NCBI GenBank assembly: GCA_031213475.1
Contig: JARUPZ010000002.1
Location: 1,178,001-1,242,000, forward strand
Origin: Nereocystis luetkeana
Taxonomy: Eukaryota; Sar; Phaeophyceae; Laminariales; Laminariaceae
Length of the DNA stretch: 64,000 nt
Reading direction: 5' to 3'
The notes beneath the pieces were generated by a model that was not told the DNA's origin, searched no databases, and saw only the letters and a list, made by a program, of their open reading frames with translations. This document shows positions 1 through 62,500 of this stretch, in pieces (position 1 is the stretch's first letter; each line of letters starts with the position of its first letter). The position numbers were made by a program, and so were the translations under genes.

Positions 1-48
1 AGTCATTTGGCCATTGACCACGCATCCTTTTCGAGACGGAGTTCGATA
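1..48 (-). mobile_element. 3' end fragment of poly-C-tailed non-LTR retrotransposon
   Basis: Read on the minus strand, this encodes PSRKGCVVNGQ, the conserved C-terminal tail of the same LINE ORF seen near 37.9, 42.4 and 60.0 kb. The tail continues left of the window. On its high-coordinate side it abuts a non-autonomous repeat end (49-115). Confidence 0.7.
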
Positions 49-125
49 TTATGCATGGCCGTAGTCGTATGACCACAATCCCTCGCATCCCTTTATACAA
101 CGCCGGGACGGCGGGGGTGGGTAGA
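49..125 (-). mobile_element. Non-autonomous poly-C element, 3' end fragment
   Basis: The minus strand carries the hallmark GACTACGGCCATGCAT...ATCGA preceded by a degraded CCGGCGTTGTA...GATGCGAGGG block. It joins directly to the LINE tail at 1-48 without an intervening poly-C tract. Confidence 0.6.
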
Positions 126-9235: not shown

Positions 9236-9325
9236 AGGCGGGGGGGGGGGGGGGGGCGGGGGGGGAGGGGGGGGGGGGGGGGGGTACTCGATATCATGCC
9301 ACGCCGTAGTAGTAGGAGGGGGGAG
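9236..9325 (-). mobile_element. Degenerate poly-C element 3' end with long homopolymer
   Basis: The plus strand shows about 45 bp of nearly pure G followed by TACTCGATATCATGCCACG. On the minus strand this is CGTGGCATGATATCGAGTA plus poly-C, the family's standard terminus. Confidence 0.6.
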
Positions 9326-16330: not shown

Positions 16331-19300
16331 ATGACCGAGGCGGAAGAAAATGACAAGAGCATCCCTTACTTCTTCCCGGATGAGTCCCCTGTCCGGTTCA
16401 CTCTGCAAGTGTTCCCGCATTCAGGTAGGTTTGTTGTCCGCAGGACTATCAACAGCTACGCCCCCCGAAGCACTTTTTTTTACTGCTACGAGTATTGCCT
16501 CGTTGCCTGGCGCAGTCTTGTGCTGCGATTCCTCCACTGCTCTGTGCTATCAAGATGAGGTGCACGGGAAGACGAGATGATGTATTCTCGCCGTGGACGA
16601 GAAGTTTGTAGAACACAGTCATAACCACAGTAGCTTCCTAGCGCAACGGTCTAAAAGCAGCTGCGCTGCACCAGTAGCCAGCAACGAAGGTGGTTGGAGT
16701 TCCTTCCTTCTTCCTTCTTCAGTGTTGGTGCAGTTCCGCCCGACCGCGTTCTCGCATTGCTCTGTATGTACGGTGCTTCACGTACGTTGAGCGATGATGT
16801 TTCCACCAAAGAAATACCTCCCCTCTGTCACACCGTCCACTTCGCTTGTTGGCTCATGGACGCTACGAAGAAGCAACATGGGGGACGCAGCAGCTCTGTT
16901 GCACCCGAGCAGCGGACAGATTGAGCAAGCAACTCCAATCGTAGCTGGTATCGGCCACCTTAGCGTACGTACGTAAGAGTTCGAAGGGCCGGATGCTCAA
17001 CGACACGTGACTCTGCTTGTTCTGCTTCGTCTGATAGACCGAGCCTACTCAGGCTCGGCCGGCTCGACCGTATGTCCTGCTTTTTGTTGCAGAATTCGTG
17101 TTTGAAGCGATTGTATTTGACCCACCCCCCACCCCGCCCGGGGGTTCAAGCAATATGCCTGATCAGTAAAAACCCGACGTGCGCCGGGATGCGAGGGCCT
17201 ATGGTCATACGTGAACCTACGGCCATGCATTTTATCGAGTACTCCCCCCCAGCCCCCAGCCTCCGGACGCATGTCGATGTTGGGTCGCCAGCAGCGTTTT
17301 CGAGTTTTTCACTCTGGTTCCACGCGTTCGGGATGTAGTCTATTCATGGTGTGGGACGCGAGACGCGTGACCCTCCTGCCATAGAAAAGTCATGTGCCAG
17401 GGCCTTGATACTGACTGCTGCACACACAACTCTATTATTGCTTGTGCCGACCCAACCGCCCGTCTTGTACTTTCTCAAGGCAAGGCGCAATCGCTGCACT
17501 GCTTGTAGCAGGAACTGATATGTATCAAGCGCGAGTGCCCCTCTGGGTTGTCGGTGCGAGTACCTGGTATTATATACTGCTGTAGATGTCCCGCACGACG
17601 GGCTATTGCTTTGTTTATGGTTTGGCGTGGCTTGGCGTGGCTTGGCGTGGCTTGGCGTGGATTTGCTTAGTTTGGTTTGGTTTGCTTCGGTTGGATTCGG
17701 TTTGGTTGGTTGGTTGTTCGTTTTTTGGCTGGGTATGGCATGGTTTGGTATGATATCAGGCACCGCTTCAACAACGATATGGGTAGTCGGTTGCGCTTGT
17801 CCGTCTTGCAAGTCGGTGTTGTCAACCTGCAACGAGGCGTTTGCCCATCATGCGAATTGGCGTCAGCGATCGGCCACGAAGGGTAGGATGGTGCCGTCAC
17901 CTCCACGTGTCCAAACGGGAACAGCAGTGCGGCTCTGGAGTCCTCTCTTCGCTGCACCTGCTCAAACGTTGGGAGACCGGCTGTGGCCTTCGCTAACCTC
18001 TCCCCCCTACCCTCTGCTCCTGCCCGTGTGCGTCACGTCTCCTTCTTCCCTGAACTACCATACCATCTTCCGCGGTGGCCCACGGACCGCTCTTGTGGCT
18101 GCAGCCGCGGTCAAGGATGCGGCGGGTGCGCCGTGGGCTTGCTCTGTTTCTCCCTTCGTAGACACGGAGACTCTCTTGTTAGGCGACTACGGGGAGAAGC
18201 CGCCGCCGCCGCCACCGCCTGTGCCCATCGACAAGGTGGCGAGGTGCGAGGAGTGCTTCGCCTACATCAGCCCCTTCAGTGAAATCACCGTCAGGTTTGT
18301 CCCAAAATTCGAAAAATCGCCTCCGAAACCGACTACGCACTACTGTACGGAAGGATCGACCAACCATCGGACTGGGTCGAATGATCGCCCGACCGACGGG
18401 ATGAGTGAGTATCCGAATGATGGACCGAATGCGTAACACCAGAACCGAATTGTCGACGGACCAACGGACCTATTGAATGGCCGAATAACCAACGGACCGA
18501 CCGACCGACCAACTGACTGAATTGAGTAACTGTGGTAAATTCTCGTCCATTCCTGCGACAAAATGATCCCACCATGCAACATAATCTTCCATCCATGCGA
18601 CGGAGTGAAGAACTGGTTTGGGTTGGTGCTGGGTAGCCGTGCATGAGGATTTAAATCATCGTAAGGTGTTTGTTTCTCTCTCTCCGGGTTGTGCCATTTC
18701 GTGCGAACCAACCGGTCGCCCTCGCTTCCCGACTACACCCGACAGGTACTGGAAATGCGCGCTCTGCGGGCATATGAGCCGCTTCACGCAGGAGCTCTCC
18801 CGATACCGCAAAAATAACGCCTTCCAAGTCTTGCCGGAGCTGTCTCAAGAGGTTGGTTTCGGGTGATTTTGGAGCGATCCATGTGCTGTGCATGGCACTG
18901 CCGTTGAGAGAAGGATTATATTATACTATTGGATTGGTTGTAGGCGGGCAGGCGAGCGGATGGGTTGGTTGAACGGGCCGCTGGCTTGCTTGTTGATTAC
19001 AGCGCCTGTTTGAGGAGCTTGTTTGAATCACTTATCGCTTGCATATTTCGGTGATCAACCGCTTCGTTATCAATAGTTGAATGGTTGGTCGGTTAGTTGG
19101 TTGGTTGATTGATTGATTGGTCGGTTTTGAAGAATTGCGGTGAGTGGTTGGTTGGTGTTTTTTTGTGGTTAGTGGTCTGTTCATTTATTTGCTTGGCAGA
19201 TCGACAGCAGTCAATGGAGTGGTATCCTGACCGATTGAGGAAAATGGTCGGGCATGCCATCGACGATCCTCTCTTGCTGTACCCATGTATCTGTATCTCA

Positions 19301-25300: not shown

Positions 25301-28300
25301 CGGTTCGTGTATCTCCTTGATTTGACCATTCGTATGTGTCCTTGGTTTGTTTGCATCTAGCCATGGTTTGTCTGCGTGTCGATTGTTTTCGTGTGTGTCC
25401 CTGCTTTGTAGATGTGCGTGCGCGCATTCTCATGTGTCTGGTATGCGTGTGTTACTGATTTACCTGGGTGAGCTTCCGACTGTGTGTTGATGTGCATGCG
25501 CCCGGCATTTGTCTTGTTTTGTTGTATCATCCCTGTTCCACGCCGACGCCGCCGCGGCCACCCTTCCTCCTCTACCATTTGCCGCGTCTCTTGCTCCGCA
25601 GTCTGCTTTCGCTTATACGGCCGTCATTCCCAGCGACGACGTCGGCGACGAGACGGACATCTCCGGCGGCAGTGGCGGCGGTGACCCAAAGGCGGCGAGA
25701 ATGGTAACAGTTCAGCGACTCAGGGTTTCTACTGTTAAGACGGAGGCGTCGCCTAGCGTCGGTTCGGTGGCGATGATGGCGGACCCGGCAACCGTGGCGG
25801 CAGTGCTGACGCACAAGGTCGTTTCAGAGGCCCGGCGGAGGTAAGAGTCGTGGCCGATCAGAATTCTTTGTTGTTTTTTTTTGTTTTGGTATTGCTTGCT
25901 ATTCGTCGTGTGTGTTTTTTCACTCGTTATCTGTCGCTCATTGCTCTGTGTTGCTTTGTTTCTCGGTGTCACCCGAGAACGTCAGCCGCAAGCCATGAGT
26001 GGATATTTTTATCTCTCGTCAACCCCTTGAAAGTCGAACATAGTACGCCCGGCACGAGTCACTCTCCGCTACCAAACTGAAATCGTTTCGTGTGAAGGCC
26101 ATGACCCTGCCCATGGCCACTGTCTATGGTCACACGACTACGACCATGCAGGCCAATGCGTGCACCCCACCCTACCCCCCTCCCGCTACGACACACTCAT
26201 CCTCCTAGGCGCAGACCGAACGCAAGCCACCGCATTCTCATACTGGTGGCTAAACTCCGCCCCCCTCCCCCCCTTCCAACCGTCTGCCCAAAACGAACAC
26301 CACACAATAACTTTCAAGCGCCTTATACGTGGTTTTGTGTCCCTCGCACCCCCCCCCCCCCCACCCCCGAATCACGCTGAACTTACTGTCGTCCCCCCGC
26401 TGCTGACCCCAAACAATCAGCGGCTTCGCCGAGGCTCGGGCCCTGTTGCGTGATTGGTTGGCCAACTTCATCCACGGGCTATCGCAGAGCTTGACCTTCC
26501 CAGCCGGAGGGGACGAGTCTGGCAGCGGCCCGGAGGCCGAGGGGAAAACGGGGATACTGATGGATCATCCCCTGGTTGTTGGCGTGGCCAGGCAGGTGTT
26601 CGGTCTCCTGCAGTCTCCGCTGCTGCACCCCACGAAGGGCGTGGCTGATGCAAGGTAGGGGCGCGGTATCGGTGTATACAGCGGGGGGTATTGGAAGGTG
26701 CGGGAATATTGTTGACGGTTCTGGGGCGTTAGGCGTAACGACCAGACGCGGCCGGGGTAGGAGACAGGAGACATCTGCGGTGAGATACAGGATACACGAG
26801 ACGGTACACATACGGGATGATAAATATATAAACCAAGGACGATGACCGTACGGAACGGCGAATGCCGATCGCTTAGTGTAACAAACTGTAATAATCCGAG
26901 ACACTCTTCCGACCGATAAGTATTGTTGTGTACAGCGAGATGGCGTGGCGGTAGGGGGTGCGCGTACAGGCTACAGGTATTTGCTCAGCGCTCAAGGCGA
27001 TAGTTGACACGGGGTTGCGCTACTACACCAGCCCGCGACTCTTCATCCTTGTCCTTGTTTGTGTTTTGTCGTTGTTCTCTGGTTTCTGTTCTCGTTTCGG
27101 TTGCATGTTCGTGTTCTTGTTCTTTTTTTTTTATATTATTCTTATTCTTATTCTTGCTTTTGTAACTGTGCTGGTCGTTGTCCTCAACCTTGTTGTCACC
27201 TGCTGCTTCTGCCGCCGCTATCTTCCCCGGTATGTTTCCATCTGCCACAGGGTAAGCCTGCTGAGCCGCCTGTCGTCGCTTGACGCCGCGTCGCTCTCGA
27301 TCGCGCTCTACCCCGAGATGCAGGGCTACGCCACTCCCGACATCCGTCTGGACAACAACTTGCCGCTCTCTAGGTACGCACTCTATACCCCCCAATCCCG
27401 CCCCCCTCCATCTTCTGCTTCCCTCCCCTACCGGCGTTGAGACAAAGGCGGGGTCGATCCGATAGCCCTTGCCGTGAATCCCCCCGCCCCCCCATCCTAC
27501 CCGCAAACGCCACATGCCTCTTTAGGTCTCGTAAATCAACAACAGAGGATCCCCCCCCGCACGCCCTCACCCCCCCCCTCCCCCCGCCCCACTCCGGCTT
27601 CCTTATCACAGGGAGGCGGTGAACCGTGTCTCTCCAGTTTGCCGCATCTTTGTCGTCGACACGTTTTGGAGGGTGGTAGTGCACTACGCGGACTCGGCGG
27701 CGACGTTGGCAGCTAGCGAGGCGGCCGGGGAGGCGCCGCTTCTGTTTCCGCCCCCGAGGGAGTCTGCGATAGGGGAGTTCCTGGAGATGAGAAGCTTGGT
27801 GCGGCCGGCGGCCGGGCGGGAGGTGGTGTACAGCCGGGCCGGGACGCCGGAGGTGCGCAGCGGCTTATTATACGGCGACGTTTTTGTGTGTTCGTTTTTG
27901 TTTTTTTTTGTGTTCGGTTTGTCTTGTATTGTGTCTGCTAGGCTGCTTGGTTGGCGTGTTTAGTATTGGGCGTTTTCTTTGACGATATGTTTTGGTTGAG
28001 TTGTTCGCTTAATTATGTTCTGTGGTTGGGTTTTGGGGGCTGTTTTTGTCTGTTTCGTTATTGTGTTGTTTTTTTGTTTCTGTCGACCGCCGCTATTCGC
28101 GTCTATTGCCGTGTATGTTTTGCGGCTGCTTGCCGGTAAGATGTCGGCTTCGTTCCGCCGGCCGCTCCTCCTCTGGCGCTTTCGCGCACGCGCCCCCACC
28201 CTCCTTCCCGTATCATAGGGGAAATAAATTCCTCCACCCCCGTTCGATTGCGGTTGTAGCGTGTAGTTTGGAGAGACCGGGGGCAAAGATGGGAGACATG

Positions 28301-29954: not shown

Positions 29955-30260
29955 GAGTCTTGTTTTTTCTCTCTGTTAACTTCTTCCCGTTCATTATTTT
30001 CGCCCTTAAAGTTTGTTTTTCCCTCCTACTGATATTTACGGGGGTACATGTTAATTAGGACCAAATATGCTGTAATCAAAATAATGGAATATAGAGGTTT
30101 TTGTGTATATAATGAGTCCTGATTACTATGGTCCTCCGTAATAATCGTAACTCAGATTCGGGCCACATCGTATTATCGCAGAATCTCCTCCCCCCTCTCT
30201 ACTACGATTCATGCCGTCATTTTCATCGCGAGAAGACTTCAGCTTCGGCATTTTTTTCCC
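29955..30260. repeat. Dispersed repeat copy interrupted by a MITE
   Basis: Flanks match 14995-15190 (CGTAACTCAGAT, TCGCGAGAAGACTTCAGC). A family 1 MITE occupies 30032-30143, so this pair is a filled and an empty site. Confidence 0.6.
30032..30143. mobile_element. MITE family 1 copy
   Basis: Ends TATTTACGGGGGTACATG and GGTCCTCCGTAATA, with an AT-rich core. It is inserted inside the dispersed repeat described at 29955-30260. Confidence 0.75.
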
Positions 30261-34030: not shown

Positions 34031-34445
34031 GGGGGGGGTGTACTTATGTCATGCATGGCCGTAGTCGTACGACCATAGACCCTCGCACCCCTACAATGCC
34101 GGGGCAGAGCACGTCGGGTTTTCATCGACCAGGCAAACATTGCTTGCACCAAGCGCAAAGCGCCGGGAGATTTTGGGCGAATCGCATGAGGGGTGAGCTG
34201 CATCCCACTAAGAACCGCCTGTGAGGCGGACTTGCCATGGATGACAGCTTCAAATGGATTGATTTGTTTCCTGCTGTGACCACTTCCGGAGACAGCAATG
34301 GGTATACCTGGTACTATGTATCTGCCTCGTGGGTGCCGTACGATATACGTACTACGTGATACGCTCATTCCCATTGTGCGGAGATAAAGTCCTCCACCCC
34401 GCACAAATCATCTAACTCGACCCGCCAGCCGTGGTGACCGCCCGA
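34031..34445 (-). mobile_element. Non-autonomous poly-C element, nearly complete
   Basis: On the minus strand it holds the family's internal blocks (TCCGCACAA...GGGAATGA, GGCAGTTACATAGTA-like, GCAAGTCCGCCTCACA, CTTGGTGCAAGCAATG, CCCGACGTGCTC) and ends ATAAGTACA plus poly-C at 34031. A short insertion near 34306 contains TACCTGGTA. Confidence 0.8.
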
Positions 34446-34874
34446 AAAATATAACGGTAGTCTGAGCGTCTAGTCTAGCTCTTGCAGTGAGAGACGTGAT
34501 TGACGGCTTTGTCGCCAACCGATGCCAAGCCAAGCCATCTATATCTGCATATCTTTAACTAATATGTTTTAAACATGTAGGCTTTCCTGGGGGGGCACAT
34601 AAATACATGCTCACACCACTAGCGGCCTTATGCATGGTACCCCCGCTGTCGCCTATCCAAGCTTTAGGACCTCCACCCGTAGGCCAAACACGCTCCTGCC
34701 TAGCCGAACCTAACTTGCCTGACGCCTCTAAACATGCCCCAAACTCCCTTGGGCGCTGATGTCCACTGGAGGGGGAACACGATAGTACGTCCTCCCAACG
34801 GTTGACAGAAGTCAGAACGGGCCAGTCAAGCTCGGTGGCAGAGGCGGCGGTGTGATCATGGTGGTGTGTGCCTA

Positions 34875-34981
34875 AAACGGGGGGCCATAGTTAATAGGAC
34901 CTCTGATATACATAAAAACCTATATATTTAACCATTTTTACTAACAATATTTGGTCCTATTAACTATGCCCCCCCGTAATA
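34875..34981. mobile_element. MITE family 1 copy
   Basis: ACGGGGGGCCATAGTTAATA ... TTAACTATGCCCCCCCGTAA with the standard core ACTAACAATATTTGGTCC. Confidence 0.8.
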
Positions 34982-35328
34982 GTTCTAACATACTTCTAAG
35001 CCTCGCGGGGTTGGGGTCGTCGCAACGCGTTATCGTAGCGGCGCACTTGGCGTGACAATCACCGAACTGATAGTACCGATACGTTTCAGTTGAGGCCTAG
35101 ACCGGGGGAAATAGACCCCGTAACTTCTGGTGCCCCTGGCTAGATGCACCTGATCACTCCTTCTTCCTCCGCAGCCACCATCACGACCACCCCCGTTCCG
35201 TGAATAGCCCCGGCCGCCATAACCATTTCCTCCTCCAGTTGGCCGCCGCAAGCTTGAGCGCCGGCGAACAAACAAGCTGACGCCTCTCCTCCCAGTCATG
35301 CGACTACGGCTCTGCGTGATATCGAGTA

Positions 35329-35830
35329 CAGGTTGGGTTGGCCTCGGTTGGCAACGACACTCTGAAACATGCCGCACTACGTGAGCTAGACAACAAGGGT
35401 ACCGGTTCTTTTTTGTTTTTTGCTTTTGGCGGTCGGTCACAGCTGGCAATAGAGTTTTAGATCATTTGTGCGGGGGTGGAGAGCCTTTACTCCGCACAAG
35501 GAGAATGATCGTACCACGTAGTGTTTATGGTAAGGCACCCTCGAGGCAGTTACATAGTACCCCCCTTGCTGTCTCTGGAAGTGGTCACACCAGAAAATAA
35601 AGCAACTCATTGCAAGCTGTCATCCATATGCAAGTCCGCCTCACAAGCGGTTCTTAGGAGGATGCAGCTCCCCCCTTCATACGACTCGCCAAACACCTCA
35701 TGGCGCTTAGCGTTTGGTGCAAGCCTGGTCGGTGAAAACCCGACATGCTCCGTCCCGGAATTGTAGGGATGCGAGGGTCTATGGTCATACGACTACGGCC
35801 ATGCATGAGATCGAGTGCACCCCCCCTGGT
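35329..35830 (+). mobile_element. Non-autonomous poly-C element, complete copy
   Basis: Begins GGTTGGGTTGGCCTCGG directly after another copy's 3' end (TGATATCGAGTACA at 35314-35327), so two units are fused head to tail. It ends GAGATCGAGTGCACCCCCCC. Length is close to 490 bp. No ORF and no clear Pol III A/B boxes. Confidence 0.8.
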
Positions 35831-36239
35831 TTGGAATAGTTGCGATCAATTTATTAAGTACGGAGGACAAGGAATGCTTCCCATGATGATTTTGTTGTAT
35901 AGTTGTATATGGATAAGAGGAATACGCACCTACTGTAAGAGGTGGAGAGAAGGAGCGACAGCAAACTTATTTAAGAAACGAAGACAAGGCTGGCCCAGGA
36001 GACTACGAGGGGATACCGCCAGTAAGCACCGTAGACAACACATTCTGTAACGTTTTGAACGATAGAAGGGGGGCCATGATGAGAAGGAAGAAAAGGTATG
36101 CGAAGGACGAGCGGGGTTCTGGCCAAAACGTACCAGGTAGCTAGCTACGTAGATTCATTCACACACATTAGATAATGTAACACAAGGAAGGAAAGGCACG
36201 GGGCTACTGTATTTATCCTACTGCAGGCGAGCAGAAGGT

Positions 36240-37965
36240 CTATGTCACAGAAAGTCTATGACAGCCTGGAGGAATGGGTTGGGGGAAATGTTGTGGGAAA
36301 TTGGGATCATAGGAAAGATGTGGAGAATGATGAAAACTATGACGGCTTGTGCTAGAAGTGCTGTGTTGCTGGACGGGGAAATATCGAATAGTGCTGATGT
36401 TTTGTGAGGAGTTGCGCAGGGGTGTACGCTATCATCTAACCTAATCAAGGTACATACTAATGACATGATAGCAGCTGTTGAAGAAGCAAAACAGGGAGTC
36501 ACGGTGGGGGAAGATAGGGAGTCGAGATTGATGCTCGCAGACGACTTCGTGGGGATATTGGAAACACCCGAAGGATTGTAGAAACTAATCGAGAAGGCAC
36601 TAGAATATACAATAACATGGAGAGTGACAACGGACGTAAAACGTGCGCAGTAGTTACATGCAATGAGGGTGAAGAGAACTCTGGAACATTCGAAGGGTAG
36701 TATTACGGGGGACCATAGTTAATGGGACCTATGGTATACATAAAAACCTATATATTTGACCATTTTTACTAACAATATTTGGTCCTATTAACTATGGTCC
36801 CCCGTAATAGGGGAAATGTGAAATACCGATCGCGAAGCAATATGCATTGCATCTAAACATTCTGGCGTAGAGATCTCAAAGGCCGCTCTTTTTTTTATGC
36901 ACACATTGTAAAAGTATTAATAGTGGGAAGGGCAAAGCACACGACACTAGGATTCTAATATTAGTTTTGATATATGTATGTGACTGCACCAAAGCTAGAT
37001 TATACAGGTGCGGTATGGAAAGGGTACGCGAAGTGCGTGAATTAGTGGGAAGCAGTGCAGATGACAGGTATAATTAATGGAATGCTCAAGTACGAGTAGT
37101 AAGAACAGAACTGGGGATGTACTCAAAATAAGTAAGGACGTGATAAAGTTGCAATGGCAATGTAAGGTAAGGGGCATGTCACAAGTCAGATTGCCAGCCA
37201 TAGCTAATAGGGCTGTATGGGATAAAACAACGATAAGTTGGGGTGACGCAGTTGAAAGAGTAAGAAAGGAAAAATTAGGGAACCAAGAAGACGCACTGTA
37301 CATACATGGAGAAGTCTTGGGGGGTACAAGACATAAATAAAAAAAAAGGATGGAAATAACGGAAATTAATGCTAGCGTTGAAAAATAAAGTGAAAGAGGA
37401 AGGACACTTATATATAAACGGGAGGTTCACGGAAGAGATTGGAACGAAAGTGTGTTTACAAGGTCCAATGGACTACGCGAAACGTACGAAACTGCAGCTT
37501 CGTGTACGGGGACCTGTCAGAAAAAAAAAAGATATACCAGTAGTAGTCAGGAGGAGGAGGAGGAAGATGCACAGATAGATGCGCCCTTGTGGCAAAGAAA
37601 AAGGAGACTAGAATTCACATCGTGGGAGAATGTAAAATACACAAAGAGGAGCGGGGTGTGTTGGAGGAGGAGCTAAGGGAAACAGGCGAATGCGACGTGG
37701 AGAAGCTTAGTACACCACCAGGTAGTTAATAGCAATATAATGATCGATATCTTAGGAGATAGATGGTGGCCACAAATGGTGAACTAGGAAGAGGATAAAA
37801 GAGACAAATTATGTAGATCTCACATAGAGAAGACGTACTGAGGGCCCAGATGTTGGAGGTATTTCTGCTAGGAGTAGGAGCGGTGCTCCGTCTCGAGAAC
37901 GCTGCGTGGTCAATGGTCAAATCACTATGGCAATGAAAAAATGAGTACGCCCCCCCCCCCCCCCC
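36240..37965 (+). mobile_element. Non-LTR retrotransposon (LINE) 3' part, decayed
   Basis: Broken frames encode reverse-transcriptase and C-terminal pieces: GVAQGCTLSSNL, AVEEAKQGVTVGED, the catalytic-box region LADDFVGILETPEGL (ADD), KLQWQCKVRGM, PAIANRAVW, a degraded CPCG-type knuckle region and ILGDRWWPQM. The end is followed by ATGAGTACG and poly-C. Stops and frameshifts are frequent, and a MITE is inserted at 36700-36811. Confidence 0.85.
36700..36811. mobile_element. MITE family 1 copy inside the LINE
   Basis: TA-TTACGGGGGACCATAG ... CTATGGTCCCCCGTAA-TA: near-perfect inverted repeats, among the best preserved copies. Confidence 0.85.
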
Positions 37966-37978
37966 CCCTATTTTTTAT

Positions 37979-38500
37979 AGGTTGGGTTGGCGTCGGTTGG
38001 CAACGACGCTGTAAAACATGCCGCTCACTACGTGCGCTAGACAACCTGGGTACCGTTTTTTTTTTTTTTTGGCGGTCGCCCACAGCTGGTTGTCGAGTTA
38101 GATCATTTGTGCGAGGTAAAGAACCTTTCCTCCGCACAATTGGGAATGATCGTATCACGTAGTGTTCAAGGTAAGGCACCCAAGAGGCAGTTACATAGTA
38201 CTCCCATTGCTGTCTCTGGAAATGCCTACACCGGAAATTATATCAACTCATTGAAGCTGTCGTCCATATGCAAGTCCGCCTCCCCAGCGGTTCTTAGTAG
38301 GATGCAGCTCACCCTTCATGCGACTCGCCAGACACCTCACGGCGCTTCGCGCTTGGTGCAAGCAATGTCTGCCTGGTCGGTGAAAACCCGACATGCTCCG
38401 TCCCGGCATTGTAGGGATGCGAGGGTCTATGGTCATACGACTACGGCCATGCATGAGATCGAGTACATCTCTCTTATCGAGTACACCCCCCCCCCCTATT
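37979..38500 (+). mobile_element. Non-autonomous poly-C element, tandem unit 1
   Basis: Starts GGTTGGGTTGGCGTCGG just after the LINE's poly-C tail. Contains TCCGCACAATTGGGAATGA, GGCAGTTACATAGTAC and CCCGACATGCTCCGTCCCGG, ending GATCGAGTACATC...ATCGAGTACACCCCC. The doubled GAGTAC end marks a subfamily also seen at 44733-44880. Confidence 0.85.
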
Positions 38501-38505
38501 ACATA

Positions 38506-39075
38506 GGTTGGGTTGGCGGCGGTTGGCAACGACACTGTAAATCATGCCGCTCACTACTTGAGTTAGACAACCAGGGTACCGCTTTTTTTTGGGGGGGGGC
38601 GGTCGGTCACAGCTGGTCGTCGAGTTAGATCGTTTGTGCGAGGTGAACAACCTTTACTCCGCACAAGTGGGAATGATCGTGTCACGTAGTGTTTACGGTA
38701 ACGCACCCAAGAGGCAATTACATAGTACTCCCATTGCTGTCTCTGGAAATGCCTACACCGGAAATTATATCAACTCATTGAAGCTGTCATCCACATGCAA
38801 GTTCGCCTCACAAGCGATTCTTAATAGGATGCAGCTCACCGTTCATGCGACTCGCCGGACACCTCACGGCGCTTCGGGCTTGGTGCAAGCAATGTCTGCC
38901 TGGTCGGTGAAAACCCGACATGCTCCGTCCCGGCATTGTCCCCCCGGTTCGCAAGCAATGTCTGCCTGGTCGATGAAAACCGGACGTGCTCCGTCCCGGC
39001 ATTGTAGGGATGCGAGGGTCACCTTCATACAACTACGGCCATGCATGACAATGAGTACCCCCCCCCCCCCCCCCG
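38506..39075 (+). mobile_element. Non-autonomous poly-C element, tandem unit 2
   Basis: A second full unit directly downstream of unit 1. Near its end the block CAAGCAATGTCTGCCTGGTC...CCCGGCATTGT is duplicated (38888-38940 and 38953-39005). It ends CAATGAGTACCCCC followed by about 16 C. Confidence 0.85.
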
Positions 39076-39229
39076 CTTGCCAGTCTGTAGTTCGGCACAC
39101 CGATCCCGAAGTGTTTCCTGGAGATCGTTACGGGGGAGATCGTGGTGCCTAAGAAGAGCGCGGCATTCCTAGTGATACTCCGGAGAATTTCGCGAATGAT
39201 TCGGCGATGCAGCACAGCTTCGGTCTTGT

Positions 39230-39906
39230 GAATGTCTAGGCACGAAAAATCATGCTCCGAACACCGTCAACGCAACCGATCCGCATCACTTAATCTTCTC
39301 CCTTTTGCGTTTGCAGGGACCCTCAAATATATCCAACCAGATGTCTTGTTAAGAAGCTCCTCTCGGCTCGATCCACTCCGCGGCGACCTTGTCGGCGCCA
39401 CTCAACGACCCCGCCTTCGAAATGTATTTCAAAGGAGGCGAAAATAATCAGTTCCGCTAATAAGGCCCAAGCGCGTGTCGCCTCGTCGATGTCAGGCACG
39501 GAGTGTCGTCTTCGCTGTTCGCTGGGCAATACTCTTTCGTCGCCGACGAGGGCTGGAACAGTCCGCCGTGCATCGGCTCGGCGGAGAGAAGCTAGACCAA
39601 ATCTCTTTCGCCACATCAGATGCTTGGACTAGTCTCCCTGGATTTTTGGAATGGTCTGCATATTAAGCGAGACTGAACAGGTGCCTTGTCAAGCATCAGA
39701 CACTGGTGATGTCATCAGGTGTCTCGCAGTGCCGGCATTTTCGCTTTCCTCGTGGAGCGTCAACAGCTTTGTGGATGTAGTCGTTACTTGTACGGATTGG
39801 GAATCCATCGCCTCAGATTGCGCGTCCATCTTCAAAGATTGGGCGGCCACCAGTTCCGTCAGCTTCTCGACCTTGCCCATCAGCACATCCTGTGTTTCAG
39901 CCATGT
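39230..39906 (-). mobile_element. Ty1/copia gag fragment, minus-strand copy
   Basis: Starts MAETQDVLMGKVEKLTELVA at 39904, a coiled-coil-like N-terminus. A lower block contains VPDIDEATRAWALL, where copia-type Gag has its helical domain. It is the mirror partner of the plus-strand copy from 40062. Confidence 0.6.
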
Positions 39907-40061
39907 GTTTCAGTTCTCAAAACACTCCTACCACCATCAGAGCTGGCTTGCTTCTTGTGGACTATCCTACCGAAAGGAATCCTTCCTCCAGAAGTTCTCC
40001 AACCGAGTGATACGAGCTCGTAGCCCACTCTGACGGTGCTGGGAGCCGTTGAGAACTTCGG

Positions 40062-40980
40062 CAGATGGCTGAAACTCAGGGCGTGCCGATGCGCAAGGAC
40101 GAAGAGCCCGCGGATTTGTTGGCCGCACAACCTATGAAGATGCCCGCTCAGTCTGAGGCAATGGCTGCCAAATCCGCAAAATGACGGAAAGCTGACGGAG
40201 CTCCAATGGGCAAGCTAATATTTCCGCACTGGGGGACACCGGGTGACATTACTATTACGGGGGGCCATAGTTAACAGGACCTATGGTATACATAAAAACC
40301 TATATGTTTAACAATTTTTACTAACAATATTTGGTCCTGTTAACCATGGCCCCCCGTAATAGCGCCTGATGCTCGACAAGGCGTCCCTTCACCCTCGGTC
40401 AGTAGACAGAATGTTTCCAAGTTCAACGGAGACGAATCGAAGCACCTAACGCGGCGGGATTTTTTTCCCCGCCTGTTTCTGCTTAGCTATCGCGTAGCCG
40501 TTGCACCGTGGGCTGTCCCAATCCTCGCCGGTGATCAGCGGGTGTTGCCCATCTAGCTAGAATGACAATACCCATCTGATGATATACCTGCCACGTGGTG
40601 TTGTATCGACGAGGCGACGCACGCTTGGGCCATCCTGACGGGAGGGGTTATTTCACCGCCCTGTCGAACAGGGTTTTCAAGGCAGAGTCATTGAGTGGCG
40701 GCTCAACAAGATATCTCGCAGGATACAATTCAGGCCCTGCAGATGCGAAGGGAAGAATATACAGTGGTTTGGACTGGTCGCGTCGACGACGTCGGCAGCA
40801 TGCTATGGCTTGTTTTCGTCCGCCCCTCTGTCGATCAAGGTTGCGGAGAAGGGTGGTGTTGTGTCCAACCGAATATTTCTGGCTGCAGTTGGCCCGGAAG
40901 GTTGAAGAGTGCGGGAACGATGAGCTCGAGGGAGGCTGGCCGTTTCGGGGGGGATTGTCAGGTACCCTGGTGTGCTAATG
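40062..40980 (+). mobile_element. Ty1/copia gag fragment, plus-strand copy
   Basis: MAETQGVPMRKDEEPADLLA at 40062 mirrors the minus copy. KFNGDESKHLTRRDFF and IDEATHAWAILTGG follow after a MITE insertion (40252-40363). Stops interrupt the frame. Confidence 0.65.
40252..40363. mobile_element. MITE family 1 copy inside copia gag
   Basis: TA-TTACGGGGGGCCATAG ... CATGGCCCCCCGTAA-TA with the standard AT-rich core. Confidence 0.85.
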
Positions 40981-41510
40981 TGGCTCGCGAACCAGACTAC
41001 AGTAGGCCCTACATCTCGAACGCTCTTAGAGCAGTAGCCAGGTATGTCACAATCACCAAGATATGTGCGCTCTGGAAGGCAACGTTTGGTATTTTTGAGT
41101 ATTTGACGACGAAAAATGGTGTTGTTACTTTCTTTCCTCAAGGTTGTGGTTAGGGTTTGAAAGCATTTGCCGATGCGGATTATGCCAGTAAGACAAGCAA
41201 TCGGAGACCAGTGTATGGTGGAACAATCATGTGTGGGGGCGCAGCAGTTAGCTGGCTTCGTAGGACACTGAACTGTGTTACATTTTTTCCACATGCAGGC
41301 CGACTGCATGACCATGTGTCAATAAGGCTCTTTTTGTCAACCACGTTTGGTGTTTTATTTTTCCTGCCCGTGGCGTACGGTGCATGAACGGTTTCGCAAA
41401 CAACCGAGGCGCAGTACAGCTGGCACCCAGTAACGAAGACGAAGTCGAAGCACCTCGAAGTGGGTCCTCATCATCATTTGAGATCATGGTTTGCCTACGG
41501 AGTTATTGTA
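40981..41510 (+). mobile_element. Ty1/copia RNase H region, decayed
   Basis: Blocks in order: PYISNALRAVARYV, ATFGIFEYLTTKNG, then after a stop KAFADADYASKTSNRR and GGAAVSWLRRTLNCVT, the copia RT-to-RNase H region. Integrase and most of the reverse transcriptase are missing between gag and this segment, so the element is internally deleted. Confidence 0.85.
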
Positions 41511-42370
41511 ACTGTCGATGTAGTGCTGGAACAGCCTACAAGTATACTGTAGAATCCGATCGTGATTCTGGACGAACTTGAACTGAATGTGTCGAGACCT
41601 GAAACATACTGCAAGGTGCATATCGCCGCCGCGTCGATGTTAACATGGTGTACGGTGTATTTCTCATGAATGGTTAATGTTATGCAGTGGTCTCGGCGAC
41701 CTCTCGAATCAAGTGTTTATTAAGTCCTGATGCCACGCCATCTTTGCTATTAAGCTTGCGCAGTTGATTATCAATTGCAGTGGTTGCAATAGAAACTGCG
41801 CCAAAACAGACAAAAGTTGAACGAATACCGCGGGATACAACAGTAATAGGTACCAGGTATATACGATGTTTACCGTGAAAATGATAACACCTCGTTTTTT
41901 CAACGATGCTAGTAGATAACCTCTACAAATTTACCCTCGCTTTGTCGGTCAACATGTATGTACGAAACACAAATATATGAAAAAATGTGTGCACCTAGGT
42001 CGGGTTAAGACAAGAAAGGGCGTTTACTGCAACCCAATTGGCAGCATGAAAATCCCCACTCAAGCTCCTCGACCTGAGTCAAACTCGACCTTCAACCGTC
42101 ACAACCTCCAGCCGTTTCGCACGCGTTTCAACTCCAATCAATCTTCGAGCGTTTCATCGGGGATTTCGCGAAAAGCGAACGAGCTTTTACACACACCCAA
42201 AGTCTAGTGTGCCCACCCTTATGGTTCTGAGTTCTGAAAGTGGCTAAAGTAACCGCAGCTGCATGTGCGCGGCATAAGCTGAAAGAAAGAGGCCAACGCG
42301 ATACTGCAATAACTATTCATGTTTCCTCCGTCTCTCTTAGGGTGGGCTTAGGTTTCGTGCTTGACTGCTC
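41511..42370. other. Intergenic, nothing recognised
   Basis: No gene or repeat family recognised. One TACCAGGTA motif near 41852. Confidence 0.4.
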
Positions 42371-42374
42371 CCCC

Positions 42375-42448
42375 CCCGCCTCGAAAGGGGTGCCTGGTCA
42401 ATGGTCAAGTGACTCAGGCAAAAAACAAGTGAGTGCCCCCCCCCCCCC
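42375..42448 (+). mobile_element. LINE 3' tail with poly-C
   Basis: Encodes SKGVPGQWSSDS-like residues equivalent to the LINE C-terminus, then AAGTGAGTG and about 18 C. Confidence 0.7.
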
Positions 42449-42451
42449 CCC

Positions 42452-42562
42452 CGTGGTCTGTGAAAACCCGACATGCTCCGTCCCGGCATTGTAGGGATGC
42501 GAGGGTCTATGGTCATACGACTACGGCCATGCATGAGATCGAGTACAGCCCCTCCCCCCCCG
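42452..42562 (+). mobile_element. Non-autonomous poly-C element, 5'-truncated, inserted behind a LINE tail
   Basis: Begins GTGGTCTGTGAAAACCCGAC directly after the LINE poly-C and ends GAGATCGAGTACAGCCCC plus C-rich tail. Confidence 0.8.
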
Positions 42563-42744
42563 GCTGTTTTGGGCTTATCTGAGTTACCTGGCCTAGCGAA
42601 GTGGAACTTGTGGACGATATGTAATAATCATTACATTTCGTGTTATCAATGGTTTTTCGTCCTCCTTCGCAAACTTCCAGGCCAAGTGAAGCGTGTATGA
42701 TGGACGATCGTTCGCTCAAGTGTTGGCTGTAATAAAAATGCGCA

Positions 42745-43790
42745 CTACTGGTTGTGTATACACCGAAAACAAAGTGAAGCCGGTAGCCTTCAAGTGGAAG
42801 TGGAGAGAAGATTAATAACAGAATGTAGACCGGTACACGTACTTTGGCCTAGAGATATTAAAGTACTGCCTTTTTTAGGGTGCACGCATAGCAAAATCAA
42901 TAGGAACGGGAAATACACACGTAGGCACGATGGATGCGATCTTGCTCATAACAGACTTGCACCTTAACACTAAGGTTGAAATATGTATCCTGATGAATGT
43001 GATTGTATCGAACCTAAAATATGCAGGGGAATTACGGGAAGGGAACGCGAAGCTTGTAAAACGGTTGGAAGCAGAGACGGCAGCTAAAAAAATACTAGGA
43101 TGCTCAAGTACGACGAGTAATAGAGTATTGACAACACAACTGGGAATGCACCCACTCAAGACAAGTAGAGACGTGAGAAAGTTGAAAAGTCAGTATGGAG
43201 TAATGGGCATGCCAAAAAAGAGATTGCCAGCCATAGCCGATATAGCTAGCTGTATGGGAGAACATATCGAAAGGGCGAGCTGGAGAAAGGTGAGATAGCG
43301 TAGTCGAGAAAATGTGGAAGGATTTAGGGTAGGAGGAAATAAAAGAGAGATGCTGTCCATAGACAAAATTGGGAGTGAAATACAAGATAACAATAAGAGA
43401 AAGGCTAGCGCTAAGAAGTAACGTGAAGGATGAAACACACTTAGAGATATACGGGGGATTAAGAGAAGGTCAAATTTAAAAGTATTTGCACGGCCTAATG
43501 GACGTCGCGACAAAGCTGAAACTGCGATTTCGTATAGGTGACCTGGATCCGCCAGAAAATTGAAAAGAGGTATACCAGTAGCCGGGAGGAGGAAGTAGAT
43601 GCACATATGTACCCGTGTGGCAATGCAATAGATAGGGGAGCTCACACAGTGGGAGAATGTGAAACGTACAAGGAGGAATGGGATGTGTTAGAGAAGGAGA
43701 TGAGGAACATAGAAGATTGTGGCTTGGAGAAGTTCGGTACACTAGCGAGGCAAGTATGGCAGCAAACGCATTCAAATATTACGCAACAAC
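42745..43790 (+). mobile_element. LINE fragment, second copy
   Basis: Homologous to 36.9-37.7 kb: VIVSNLKYAGELREGNAK, KKILGCSSTTSNRVL, GMHPLKTSRDVRKL, MPKKRLPAIADIA, YTSSREEEVDAHMYPCGNAI and GECETYKEEWDVLEKEM. The knuckle-like Cys/His arrangement (CG...H...C) survives. Truncated near 43790 before the poly-C terminus, with several frame breaks. Confidence 0.85.
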
Positions 43791-44701: not shown

Positions 44702-44890
44702 CGCACCCCCCCCCCCCCCCCCTCACGGCACTTCGCGCTCGGTGCAAGCAATGTCTGCCTGCTCGGTGAAAACCCGACATGCTCCGTCCCGGCATTGTAG
44801 GGATGCGAGGGTCTATGGTCATACGACTACGGCCATGCATGAGATCGAGTACATCTCTCCTATCGAGTACCCCCCAACCCCCCCCCCCGG
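44702..44890 (+). mobile_element. Non-autonomous poly-C element flanked by C tracts on both sides
   Basis: A C run of about 17 precedes TCACGGCACTTCGCGCTCGG, the family's 3' half follows, and it ends GATCGAGTACATC...ATCGAGTACCCCCC. Same doubled-end subfamily as 37979-38500. Confidence 0.8.
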
Positions 44891-50550: not shown

Positions 50551-53500
50551 TCACAGCCTCGAAGTCAGCCTTCCCCCTTCTTGCGATTCGGCATACAGTG
50601 CCGCGATAACATCCGTGTACTTCTCCCTCGCTTGGGTCCTCTTGAGCTTTTGGGTCGGCGTCAGGAGGTCGTTTTCACTGCTGAACGGGTCCGCCTCTAG
50701 GTGGATGGCTCGCACCTTGGGCAGGCGGTAGACCGGCGGGAGCCCGGGCAAGGAGGGGGTAGGAGATGCGGGTGAGGTTGGGCGCGAACGCTGGTACTAC
50801 TGCAGGTTTGAAATTACCATATAGCGTCGTGCAGTGATGACTACGAGGTATTGATTAGACACAAGTTTGTTGCTGTTATTGATGTTGTTTTCGTTGATAA
50901 ATGATGGAGCGTGATGGAGTACGTCGAGTTTTCACCGAGCAGGCAAACGTTGCTTGCACCAAGCGCGAAGCCCCGTGAGGTGTTCGGCGAGCGACATGAA
51001 GGGTGAGCTGCATCCTACTCAGGACCGCGTGTGAGGCGGGCGTCTATTCCTTTCTTGCATGTGGATGACAGTGTCAAATGTACTTTTGCGTCTAGCATTT
51101 TCTGACTGGCGGTGCTGCTCAACTGAGCACCTACACCAAATATTTGCAACCGTCTTTGTGTTTTTTATCATTCTACGATTATATCAGTGACAACATGCCA
51201 ATCCCTTGGGATTTCTCATCGGTCTACGCGTGCACTCTAAAAATAAGTTTCTGGGTGAGGTGCAGAATTCCTCATACAAAAAACAGCAACCTGACAAAAA
51301 TAAGCACCCCTCTAGGATCTACCAGGTGTAAATGTAAAATAAAACATGAGATGTGAGATGGAGGAACTCATCTTTGCAAGCTGCGTATATAGAATGACCC
51401 TCTTTAGAGGGTTCGGTAGTCACAGCACAGCCGACGACTCTCCTGGTGCAGGTATACGGCACGCTAGGCATCGCCATATCTGACAACACACAAAACGTGC
51501 GGTACCCTTTTCAGAGGGGAGGGTTCGGTAGTCACAGCAAAAGCGGCGATTTACCCGGTGTATGCATCCAGCACAATCGGTCTCACCATACCTGGTACCT
51601 GATAGACAAACTGTAAAAATGGGGTGGGTGATCCATGGGCTAGCACTATAAACCCATGGGAGACCCTTGGGCGAGCCATGGGCCAGTACTGTAGAGCCAC
51701 GCGTGACCCACGGGAGACTCCTGGCAGACGCATACAAGGCCCATAGGAGTCCCATGGGTGACCCATGGGCCAGCACTTGAAACCCATCGGAACCCCATAG
51801 GAGAGGCCAGCACAAAAAATACAGGGCAAGACCCATGACAAGACCCATGGGTCAGCCCCAAAAAAAACATGGCAGACCCATGGAAGGTCCGTGGGAGACC
51901 TGTGAGCCAGCACTATAAACCCATGTGAGACCCATGGCACACCCATGGCAAACCCATGAACCCATGGGCGACTCATGAGCCTGCAGTATAAATCCATGGG
52001 CCAGACCTATTCTATGGGCGAACCATGGACCAGCACTATGAACTCCTAAGGGCGACTCATAGGAGGCCACGGCGTCCCCGGTGGCTTGGTAGGTGGTCCG
52101 CGTGCCTATCAAGATCAATTTCGTGGGTTCAAGTCTCACCGAGTGCATACTCGTGGCTTTTTCTTGCAAAAAATAAATTGATTAGCGGAAAGCGCGAGAG
52201 CGTGAGTTAGCTACATTCGAAGAAAATCGACGAGCAGTGGGAATGCTGAACCCTACGCGAGACAAAAAATAAAGGCAAGTACCGGGGGGGAGAAGGGTGG
52301 ACACCTGTGACCACGGCTTGTCCAGAAGCTCGTTGAGGGTAAAAACCTTCCACGAGTAAGGCTGGAAAGTAAAAGTGACGTTGAAAAAAAAAAATATGGA
52401 GACCCATGGGAGACCCATGGGCCAGCACTATGAACTCCTAGGGACGACTCATGGGACAGTTGGGCCAGCCTTATAAAGCCATATGAGTGACCCATGATCA
52501 ACCCATGGGCCAGCACCACAAACCCGTGGGAGATCCATGAGTGACCCATGGAGGGCGACTTATGGGCGACCCATCGACGACCGATGGGTGACCCATGGAT
52601 CAGATACACGAGGCAAAAGGGAACCCGTAGTACGCGCGTTCGAATCACACACAGCTTGCAAAGATGAGTTTCGACGAAAGCTTCGATCTCATAGCTGGTT
52701 TTTTTATATATATTTCTCAAATATATGTCAACGGGTGATCGATGGCCCATAGGGCAGCACTGCAAGTCCATGGGGGACCCCGTACGCGATCCATGGGTCA
52801 GTACTGTAAACCCACGAGTGGCCGATGGGAGGCTCATGGCAGACGCGTGGCAGACTCATGGGCCAGCACTTGAAACCATGGGAGCCCCATGGGAGAGGGC
52901 AGCACAACTAATTCATGGCAAGATCCATAGCAGACCCATGGGCCAGCACTATGAACTCATTGGAGACTCATGGCAAACCCATGCGAAACCCATGGGCCTG
53001 TATCATAGACCCATGGGCGATCCACGGGCCAGCACTATAAATCATGGGCGACTCATGAACCGGCACAACGAACTACGGGCGACGCATGGGGGGTCACCCG
53101 CGCGTTAACCATGCCAGGCGGCCCATGGAACCGCTGCCAGACACATGGGTGAGATATCGGGCGCTTGCTGTTGTATGGGGCACGCAAAGAAGCGTTCACC
53201 AACACCTCCACACCTGTACCCCTGAACTCAGCATGCATGCCTACAAATAAGTGGGAAACCCGCTGGGATATACATCCCAGGATAGCCTAGACGCCACGTA
53301 TACCACCGAGGCTCATGGGCGAGCCGTGGCTCACCACTATGAACCCATGGGAGGCCCATGGGTCAGGTACTGTAGATAGACAGACGGGAGACCTATGGGT
53401 GACTAATGTGCGACCCATGGGCACCCCATTGGTCAGATATATGTACCAACGAGTGACCCATGGGCCAGCGCGTAGCCCCTCGGTGACCTATGGGTCAGGT

Positions 53501-59500: not shown

Positions 59501-62500
59501 TCCGTTAATACATGCTGCAACACCCATACCAACCCATGGAACACGAGGATGCACCCAGAACGCCCGCTGATGGCCACCAGCAGCACCATCGCCATCAACA
59601 CCAGTACAAGTACTAGGAATACCAGTACAAGTACAAGTACCAGTACAAGTACTAGGAATAGCCACACCAACTAAACCGCAACCCAAACCTAAAACTCTCA
59701 CCCTTCTCCGTTAGCCTTGGCCCACGCCACAACAGCTTCTGCGTCCGGAACGATGACGGCAACCAGGTAGCTCTGGAGACTGTCCCCGTGGATGTAGGAC
59801 TGTGCCACCAGCGGGCTTTGGGTGTGGACGTTCTCGAGCTTCTCGGGTGCGACATATTCTCCCTGTTTTGTTGTTTGTTTCGTGCAAAAGGGGGGCGGGG
59901 GGGGGGGGGGGGGGGGGGGCGTACTGATTGGTTGTTTGCCTTACAGCAGTAATTTGGCCATTGACCACGCACCTCTTTCGAAACGGGGCACCGTTGGTAC
60001 TCACCGTTCCTACTCCTAATAAAGACACCTCCAACATTCGTCGACGTCACTTGGATCTTTGAAAATAATTAGGATATTGATATACTCAAATGTGGCGGTT
60101 GGGGAGTGCTTGCAGGAGGGAGAAATACGAGCCCCCGTTTACAGTAGAGTCTATCTCGATGGATGGACTCAGCACAATTCCTGCGCTCTGTTTTTTTTTT
60201 CACTTCAACGACTCGCCGAATTCTGATGGGTTTTTTTCATCTTCGTGCACTCGACACTTGACGTATGTGTCACCTGAAAAGATCATGACAAAATATGTAA
60301 AGCGTCGAGTCGAGCGTCCATGTAGATTTTAAAAAAACAAACAGAATATGCCGAGTCCATGAAGATGAAGAAAAGGCACGAGATATATGACGCGCCCATC
60401 CATCAAGATGGGCTGTACTGTTAGGGGTGGGACTGAAATATTTTTAGACGTAAAAAAGTCACAAAAAATGTCAGGGGGGAAAGATGAATCTTTAACAAAT
60501 TAACCAATCAGCGCCTGGCATAGAATAAGTACGTCACAAAAAAACTCTTCATCATTTGATATCATATACCAGGTACCAGGTACCAGGGTAGTCAGTAGTA
60601 TGGTACGAGAGGAGCTGCAGCGTGTGGCTCGAGAAGGGCGGAGCAGCACACAAAAAAAATAGCACGACGAGTGCTCGAGCAGCAGTGCAGCAGCGCACAA
60701 ACGGGCGCGTGAGCGTGGGGGGGGATTACTGGTGCAGCCCCTGCCAGGCCTTGTTGTGAAGGTGGATCTGCTGATCCCGGCACGGCTGCTGGCGTTGCTG
60801 ACCCGGCTGCTGCTGCTGCTGCTGCTGTGGTGCAAGATGTTCCAATCTACAGCCATCTAACCCGGTCGCGGCTGACCTCCGCCCCCGCGATGCCATGGCG
60901 GATAACAGCATTCGCTCGGGACACGATCGCCGCCGCCTCGTGGACACTACGACCCGTACGCTGCAGATATGCCTCCCGGTTCGCTTGGACAATTTTTTTC
61001 TTTTTGCTCTCGGCCGAGGTTCCTTCTGTTTTTTTCGAAGTACCCATCACGAAATTGATTGTCGTGGTCCCCAAAAAGTACCGATTTTTTGTCGAATCGT
61101 TCTCTACGGATACTGCGTCGATTCGAGCGGGGTTTGTTTTGCTGTAAGCCACATATCCCAATGTAGGGTATACATAAGTCTGCCCACTACTCAAAAGAAC
61201 TCATAGAATAAGAGGAAAAAAACACAAGAGAAAAACATGTTTCTCCGCACCTTTTACTCTATAAATTCGTCAATTGGTACTCCTGTGCTAAAACGAGCAA
61301 AGCATCCGAAAGGTATGGGCCTGTGTGAGATGTCTGTATGACGTCAAGATCCAATTCATCTCCACCCCAGAGAAATATCGTATACAAAGTTCACTATGCA
61401 TGAACACTAAAACCAAGTTCTTGGGGGTATGTCGGTAGTTTTACTTTTTCACATTTTATTTTATTATTTGGTTGGTCGTTTCGAATAGCCTGCCGCTTTT
61501 TTGGGTCAAAACAGGCCTCCAGTCCCACCCCTAACTGTAGATGGGGCTCGTATTCGTCCCCGCTGCACGCACTCCCCAACCGCCGAAGGAGTTGAAACAC
61601 AAAAAACAAAGCAAGTACAACATGTTTGGGGCCCACGCTAAACAGTAGCGCCCTCATTAGGCTGTTTCTTACATCGGTTGGGTTTGTTTTCCAGTCCACC
61701 TTGTTTCTCCGGCCAAGTATTGTTGGGCCTTGCTCGGAAAGCGAGCAAATCGGTCGTATTATTCTCGTGATGAGTCCACCACGGCCCCGCAGGTACCCAC
61801 GAAAAATCCACGTCTCTAACGATGCATTTTGAAATTCTTGAGGGTTGTCATTTTCTACAATTAAATAAATCTGAAAGCGCAAAATATTCAAGATCTTGAA
61901 TTTTCCGACTGGGATGTGCATTCGAGTGATTTTGGTTGGAAGCGCGTGGAAGTGACACAATTCTCAAGAATTCAAAACGCTTCGTGGCAGAAGCCGATTT
62001 TTTATAGGAGCATCTCTGGGATGGTGGCTGAACTTATTCCGAGAAGTGTTTGTTGTTGTTGTTGTTCTCACATTAACTCACAATTTAATGCAGTCCGTGG
62101 TCGCAGGACAGGCTCCAATAACTCTGGAGTGGAAGAAATACCTCAAGTAAAAACAGAGGCAAAAAACAAAAAACAAGCATACGCACTCCACCACTGCGGA
62201 CACCAGGGAAGCAAAAAGGAGACTATTAATAGCAGACAAAAACAAAAACAAAACTGAAGCAGACGCAGATAGCAAAACGCAAAAAAATATATGGAGCCCC
62301 GGGTCAAAAACAGCCATTCTGGCCGAGAAAAAAAATCAAACTAAAGCAAAACCGCTAGACGTAAAAAAACAGCCTCCACTACAGTAGCTGCAATCGCAAC
62401 AAGAGGCGTTACGTACACAAAAACATGATCATTTTCTCTACAAATCCTCACCTGCGACAACTTGAAGATGTTCTTCTTGCGGTCTTCTCACGCCGACCCG

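Follow-up and report, generated by a model that had tools for sequence, protein, structure and literature searches.

C runs as tails and as probable targets of a LINE and its SINE-like partner in the brown alga Nereocystis luetkeana

Why should two retroelement families of one genome end in the same motif and the same run of C, and why do most full-length copies of the smaller family also begin next to a C run? The question is raised by a stretch of 64,000 nucleotides from Nereocystis luetkeana (assembly GCA_031213475.1, contig JARUPZ010000002.1, positions 1,178,001 to 1,242,000, forward strand; referred to here as the window and numbered from its first letter), in which copies of a long interspersed nuclear element (LINE) and of a smaller element resembling a short interspersed nuclear element (SINE) lie one behind the other between positions 35,329 and 39,075. 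Our answer is that both very probably insert by target-primed reverse transcription, mainly at C runs that were there before them. The borrowed 3' end of the small element is established within this reading, as is insertion inside C runs at three SINE sites and, by way of a target-site duplication, for one LINE copy.

The window copies were checked by reading and with BLAST. At the center of the stretch is a chain of elements on the plus strand. It contains a degraded LINE (35845-37949, +), comprising the reverse transcriptase and C-terminal part and ending in ...AAAAAATGAGTACG, whose TGA is the stop codon; RVT_1 is found in the reading frames of sister copies. A run of 19 C (C19; run lengths are given in this manner throughout) follows at 37950-37968 (+), and directly after it a full-length SINE-like element (37969-38485, +) with the leader TATTTTTTAT, the head AGGTTGGG, a LINE-derived 3' end and a doubled terminus, ATCGAGTAC...ATCGAGTACA. 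C11 (38486-38496, +) separates this copy from a second, older SINE (38497-39057, +), which has an internal partial duplication and ends in ATGAGTA+C17, the tail itself lying at 39058-39074 (+). Upstream of the LINE is a full-length older SINE (35329-35826, +) ending in GAGTGCA+C7, which abuts the GAGTAC end of a preceding SINE fragment (35295-35330).

Judged by its reverse transcriptase domain, the larger family is a LINE (a non-long-terminal-repeat retrotransposon): open reading frame (ORF) pieces of two sister copies match RVT_1 above the cut-off (E=2.5e-12 and 4.3e-9), and a third piece matches below it (E=1.2e-4). It is probably of the RTE-X kind, a label that follows PMC12477816; a PDB search with a reverse transcriptase piece gave weak matches only, the best to the R2 protein (E=0.36). 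The hallmarks of a LINE are present, namely 5' truncation, a 3' tail and variable target-site duplications, with one duplication for the LINE itself (L029; sampled loci carry L numbers). One reading frame of a window LINE stops at the TGA of ATGAGTAC, inside the terminal motif, and what follows the stop is GTAC, often a G, and then the C run. Since the stop codon is part of the terminal motif, the LINE is almost without a 3' untranslated region. At another locus, L092, a 5'-truncated LINE and a SINE lie within a gene that, labeled from its translation, resembles a DEAH-box helicase; the LINE end there is preceded by a C run.

The smaller family is about 500 bp long (1,229 first-look candidates, with 40 scored and 41 among the matches listed). 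Over its final ~73 nt it is homologous to the coding end of the LINE, with a score of 44 where 5,000 shuffles reached no more than 25, and the score is still 40 when the terminal 10 nt are left out; the shared end follows the pattern TGCTCCGTC..GGGATGCG..GGTC.ATGGTCA.A.GACTA.GGC....GAGTAC. Because this homology is far above the shuffles, the end of the small element looks, on sequence grounds, like a borrowed LINE tail, which supports what the initial annotation of the window had proposed. The shared terminus that it described is likewise real, except that it extends over ~73 nt, coding in the LINE, rather than over GAGTAC alone. Being short, present in many copies and equipped with the 3' end of a partner LINE, the element qualifies as a SINE in these respects; with no RNA polymerase III (Pol III) RNA match for its 5' head, we file it as SINE-like and not as a classical SINE. 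The head was rejected as a known small RNA, as no tRNA was found in the window, window positions 34900-43000 matched none of the Pol III RNA families at E values up to 5, and head folding gave a z of -0.08 against shuffles. A conserved 3' RNA stem-loop common to LINE and SINE was also considered and rejected, as folding of the alignments produced no structure, either for the LINE set or for the two sets combined. In one SINE subfamily, represented by 29 of 46 SINE tails, the terminus ahead of the C tail is doubled, ATCGAGTAC-ATCTCTCCT-ATCGAGTAC (for example, window 38440-38496 and 44840-44888, and many young copies), as if the motif had to adjoin the tail.

Across the 465 Mb of genome surveyed (1,987 contigs), GAGTACC9 occurs 5,968 times (2,992 + 2,976), compared with 33 occurrences (21 + 12) of a reversed-pattern control. 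Together with the reading and BLAST of the window, this count bears out the description of LINE copies and a small element with poly-C tails. Among 20 loci on contig C1 that were selected solely by the GAGTAC+C9 pattern, SINE or LINE sequence lies immediately upstream of 22 of 23 tails, L051 being the sole tail without either. LINE 3' ends were also collected with a 64-nt query that stops short of the tail; this yielded 42 matches, of which 39 tails were fetched and, with the duplicates L054 and L072 dropped, 37 were distinct. The terminus is exactly GAGTAC in 28 of the 37, and nine deviate (eight base-change variants and one without GAG). Other ends, which had been named beforehand as what would speak against a common terminus, do therefore occur, but the passage into C persists: by eye, 36 of the 37 enter a C-rich tract, sometimes mixed with T or G (L068, L075 and L078), the single exception being L066, which runs into another LINE tail. 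Over the first 15 nt past the motif the LINE tails are 83% C (33 rows scored by script); L062, L066, L072, L082 and L084 fell outside the script motif, were read by eye and are excluded from this composition.

C runs are common on the 5' side as well. In a head sample composed of head-chosen loci (L003-L032), tail-chosen loci and the window, a run of at least five C lies within 21 nt before the leader in 39 of 42 SINE heads scored by script, compared with 2.8% of random 21-mers drawn from the window; of ten more heads read by eye, nine follow such a run (48/52 in total). Some of these runs are the tails of an upstream element. The exceptions include L045, where the C run is farther upstream, and the 35.3-kb copy, which follows another SINE end. 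A leader variant of A and then C5 is seen in 7 of the 42 heads, one of which, L037, resembles an older tail. Among truncated tailed copies, a 5' run of at least five C lies within 25 nt in 18 of 31, compared with 3.5% of random 25-mers.

To see what the sites looked like before insertion, we matched the joined flanks of insertions against the genome. One repeat took nearly all scored places of the first search, and the remaining units entered a second search only, in which two repeats again filled most places; the results cover the L006, L022 and L047 units. The joined flanks of L006 match at least 41 uninterrupted copies of a host repeat (among the 42 matches listed). Of these 41 copies 19 were fetched, and every one shows a C-rich run where the element inserted, unbroken C9 to C13 in six and interrupted by T or A in 13; the filled site is C17-SINE-C8 and has lost no other base. 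For L022, all 10 fetched empty copies are C-rich, with a longest run of 6 to 15 C, and the filled site is C11-TA-C7-SINE-C7. In L018 the SINE sits inside one C12 of a 57-bp minisatellite, giving C13, SINE and C12, and the neighboring unit also has C12. Two of these three SINE sites are thus read from empty copies (L006 and L022) and one from the neighboring minisatellite unit (L018), and at all three, as for the L029 LINE, the C is on the element's sense strand. As in microsatellite-targeting elements, the empty site holds a simple repeat at these three sites, all of them SINE insertions; L047 is a weak case. When checked in this way, the earlier suggestion that insertions favor existing C tracts held up, at the empty sites of L006 and L022, in the L018 minisatellite and through the 5' C runs. 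The minisatellite itself, with C12 between its 57-bp units, occupies 1420-2160 of L018 and is the same in L030. A ~57-nt duplication in L018/L030 is its unit, and was therefore rejected as a target-site duplication and left out of the count given below.

For target-site duplications, C3 and the bases following it were compared with shuffled pairs in the 57 usable of 68 tailed copies. C3 plus six bases is repeated on the 5' side in 7 of the 57 (shuffled mean, 0.34; maximum, 3 in 500), and C3 plus seven bases in 4 of 60 (shuffled mean, 0.17; maximum, 2); L135 is a further case beyond the seven. The readable duplications begin in the C run and extend 6-12 nt beyond it. In the truncated copies L041 and L033 and in the LINE of L029, the duplicated target includes the C run on the 5' side. 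The L029 LINE lies between two SINEs, and its duplication, C7-TATTATAT, reaches eight bases into the leader of the downstream SINE. These three truncated cases have no extra C between duplication and element, whereas four full-length copies (L020, L031, L008 and L135) have a C-rich stretch between duplication and leader, tentatively suggesting, together with the variant that some leaders have in common, that full-length SINE RNAs may begin within the upstream C run or carry a C-rich leader.

Insertion might thus proceed in the following way. The bottom (G) strand would be nicked within a G run, the 3' end of which would pair with the C tail of the RNA next to GAGTAC and prime cDNA synthesis. 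The top strand would be cut ~6-12 nt beyond the C run, slippage would lengthen the C tail, and the C runs left at the ends of each insertion would serve as fresh targets for later copies. We lean, by somewhat more than an even chance, to the broader idea that a LINE/SINE machinery directed to homopolymeric tracts of C renews its own target and has in this way seeded thousands of landing sites and dense chains across the genome. In a finer version of insertion at existing C runs, nicking would be loose and the target selected by annealing, as only nicks ending in a G run could pair with the C tail; its probability overlaps with that of the reading that it refines, and we put it a little short of even. 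It fits the same data, including duplications that start in the C run, and would allow for targets perhaps as short as C4-C6. On the minus strand of locus L016 (~1385-1500), a SINE head of 77 nt ending in GGGTAC is followed by a C run and a full SINE, a composite for which a template jump at an internal GTACC is a possible origin. Selection by annealing gains from this unit, which resembles a G-ended cDNA re-priming at internal GTACC, and nothing decisive speaks against it.

Several observations weigh against insertion at existing C runs. Readable duplications are few (7/57), in part because a duplication of C only is invisible; among them, that of L044 (TTCCCC) is C-rich and doubtful, and that of L033 lies within a repeated array. 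Thirteen of the 31 truncated copies have no 5' run of five C within 25 nt, which counts against a strict rule; copies without such a run include L052, L035, L033 at 528 and L042. Breaks in the alignment or joints within chains may account for some of the run-less truncated copies (L005 and L032), not necessarily for all. The 10 relatives fetched for L047 (82-87% alike) carry just C4 (seven), C6 (two) or C2 (one), so that the target may be short there and C possibly gained on insertion, the filled site having C17 5' of the insertion and C9-C10 3' of it. For the LINE, the support comes from the L029 duplication and the 5' C runs of some truncated copies. No Pfam endonuclease domain was detected in three degraded LINE fragments, nor was an intact LINE ORF read, and for this reason the specificity of the nick is something that we infer. 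A shared stem-loop is unsupported, the SINE set alone folding weakly (-10.7).

Part of this evidence would be expected if insertion took place at ordinary sites with no target preference, and poly-C arose in its course or afterwards by tail slippage and untemplated additions. The truncated copies without a 5' run fit such an origin, as do the long runs of the filled L047 site beside C2-C6 in its relatives, the C17 and C8 of filled L006 against at most C13 in its empty copies, and the extra C between duplication and SINE head in L020, L031 and L135. We nevertheless consider it unlikely, since a C run is already present in the empty sites of L006 and of L022, as well as in the L018 minisatellite, and since the 5' run is part of the duplicated target in L041, L033 and the L029 LINE. 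As the sole cause, it is refuted by the empty sites; expansion may contribute, and sites of the L047 type leave room for it.

Insertion at existing C runs also bears on the chains. A SINE match lies within the next ~110 nt of the LINE tail in 11 of 33 cases, all in the same sense (the L064 match is of low complexity), while 2,000 random 115-nt windows from element-rich loci, taken as a control, gave 179 same-sense and 169 opposite SINE matches. The initial annotation had new units often starting right after an older poly-C; head-to-tail chains are real, but the younger unit is not necessarily the downstream one, as the LINE and the older 38.5-kb SINE (90%) have between them the 38.0-kb SINE, which is 97.5% identical to a young copy. 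Because the L029 LINE duplicated C7 together with bases of the SINE leader, its chain seems to have formed by insertion into the C run between SINEs. With poly-C being target as well as tail, chains appear to be a side effect of a general rule of target choice, in which insertions leave C runs at their ends, the target is renewed and chains follow. Tandem duplications or multimeric transcripts would also produce a head-to-tail, same-sense order, and could account for the L016 composite and the internal partial duplication of the 38.5-kb SINE; we regard them as more improbable still, as chain units differ in age, length and family (LINE beside SINE; 97.5% beside 90%) and the L029 LINE has a target-site duplication of its own between its SINEs. 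Homopolymer lengths are error-prone in some long-read data, yet an artefact of assembly or sequencing is hardly credible when copies number in the thousands and the same insertion is found on separate contigs (L053/L054, L017/L028 and L018/L030).

LINE/SINE pairs with a common 3' end and LINEs that target simple repeats are known already, whereas the literature searched showed no case of poly-C serving as tail and target; a limited search, which is no proof of absence, gave no LINE or SINE with a poly-C tail or a poly-C target. Microsatellite-specific LINEs were reportedly treated by Kojima and Fujiwara in 2004. One such LINE, Togen, targets a (TG)n microsatellite (PMC4640811); the present target is likewise a simple repeat but differs in being a single-base run common to SINE and LINE. 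The Zepp LINE of Chlorella and Coccomyxa forms nested clusters, about one per chromosome (PMC3446292), and has a poly-A tail (PMC3747384). Our families are like Zepp in their nested copy clusters and unlike it in being dispersed and poly-C tailed. In Chlamydomonas, SINEX-3_CR shares ~80 nt of its 3' end with L1-1_CR, and the tails listed for green-algal RTEX elements comprise (CA)n, (CAA)n, (CCAT)n, (ACAATG)n or (CTTGTAA)n (PMC3747384). The common 3' end of SINE and LINE and the ending of algal LINEs in simple repeats are points of likeness, and the difference is that none of the RTEX tails listed there is poly-C. Ectocarpus has RTEX-N1_Ec32, a ~600-bp non-autonomous element of >6,000 copies and the most abundant family there, which PMC12477816 describes as a possible SINE of unknown 5' origin with a 3' end conserved with the autonomous RTE-X LINEs RTEX-1/RTEX-2_Ec32. 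Compared by description only, it is like our element in being short, abundant and joined to a LINE by its 3' end; it differs in that poly-C tails and C-run targets are unmentioned in the text considered (terminal motifs are in Fig. 1C of that paper).

In the present pair, target and tail each consist of a single letter and the partner follows the same rule, which makes for a natural system in which the target choice of a LINE can be read from sequence. With it one can ask whether target choice is made at the nick or at the annealing, how tails lengthen and how a transposon that builds its own target spreads. The pair also points to poly-C tracts as hot spots of insertion in genomes of this kind, and the shared LINE 3' end, which lies within coding sequence as far as the stop codon, is a compact example of constraints that overlap.

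Elsewhere in the window, the LINE tails at 37.94 kb (+), 42.43 kb (+) and 59.92 kb (-) include those of a 5'-truncated LINE at 42370-42452 (+), with C8, the last ~60 nt of the LINE and C17 and thus C on both sides, and of a LINE 3' end at 59897-60036 (-), which reads CAGTACG+C23. A 5'-truncated SINE (42453-42561, +) begins directly after the C17 of the former. Further truncated SINEs with C on both sides are found at 44706-44888 (+), where C17 precedes the element (44721-44888) and its C-rich tail, and at 1421-1544 (-), where C13 and C8 flank the element (1439-1522). Other truncated copies lie at 9267-9320 (-), ending in GAGTA+C18, and, diverged, at 17143-17250 (+), ending in GAGTACT+C7; SINE fragments lie at 43-111 (-) and 1648-1682 (-). 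An older SINE at 34031-34533 (-) ends in AAGTACA+C8. The copies had been listed at the right positions in the initial annotation, but this 34.0-kb SINE is nearly full length and no fragment, and those at 50910-51039 (-) and 26122-26150 (+) had been missed. The ends of the 35.3-kb SINE and the 59.9-kb LINE deviate from GAGTAC followed by C.

Window C runs of 12-20 bases at 1934, 2955, 22686, 23399, 26349, 28755 and 56972 adjoin no recognized element and are either unoccupied targets or old tails. Finally, a ~110-bp palindromic repeat resembling a miniature inverted-repeat transposable element occurs in the window at 609-718, 815-926, 4519-4644, 6787-6898, 30036-30143, 34877-34982, 36701-36809 and 40250-40362; the copy at 36701-36809 sits inside the window LINE, and further copies are found in the fetched loci.

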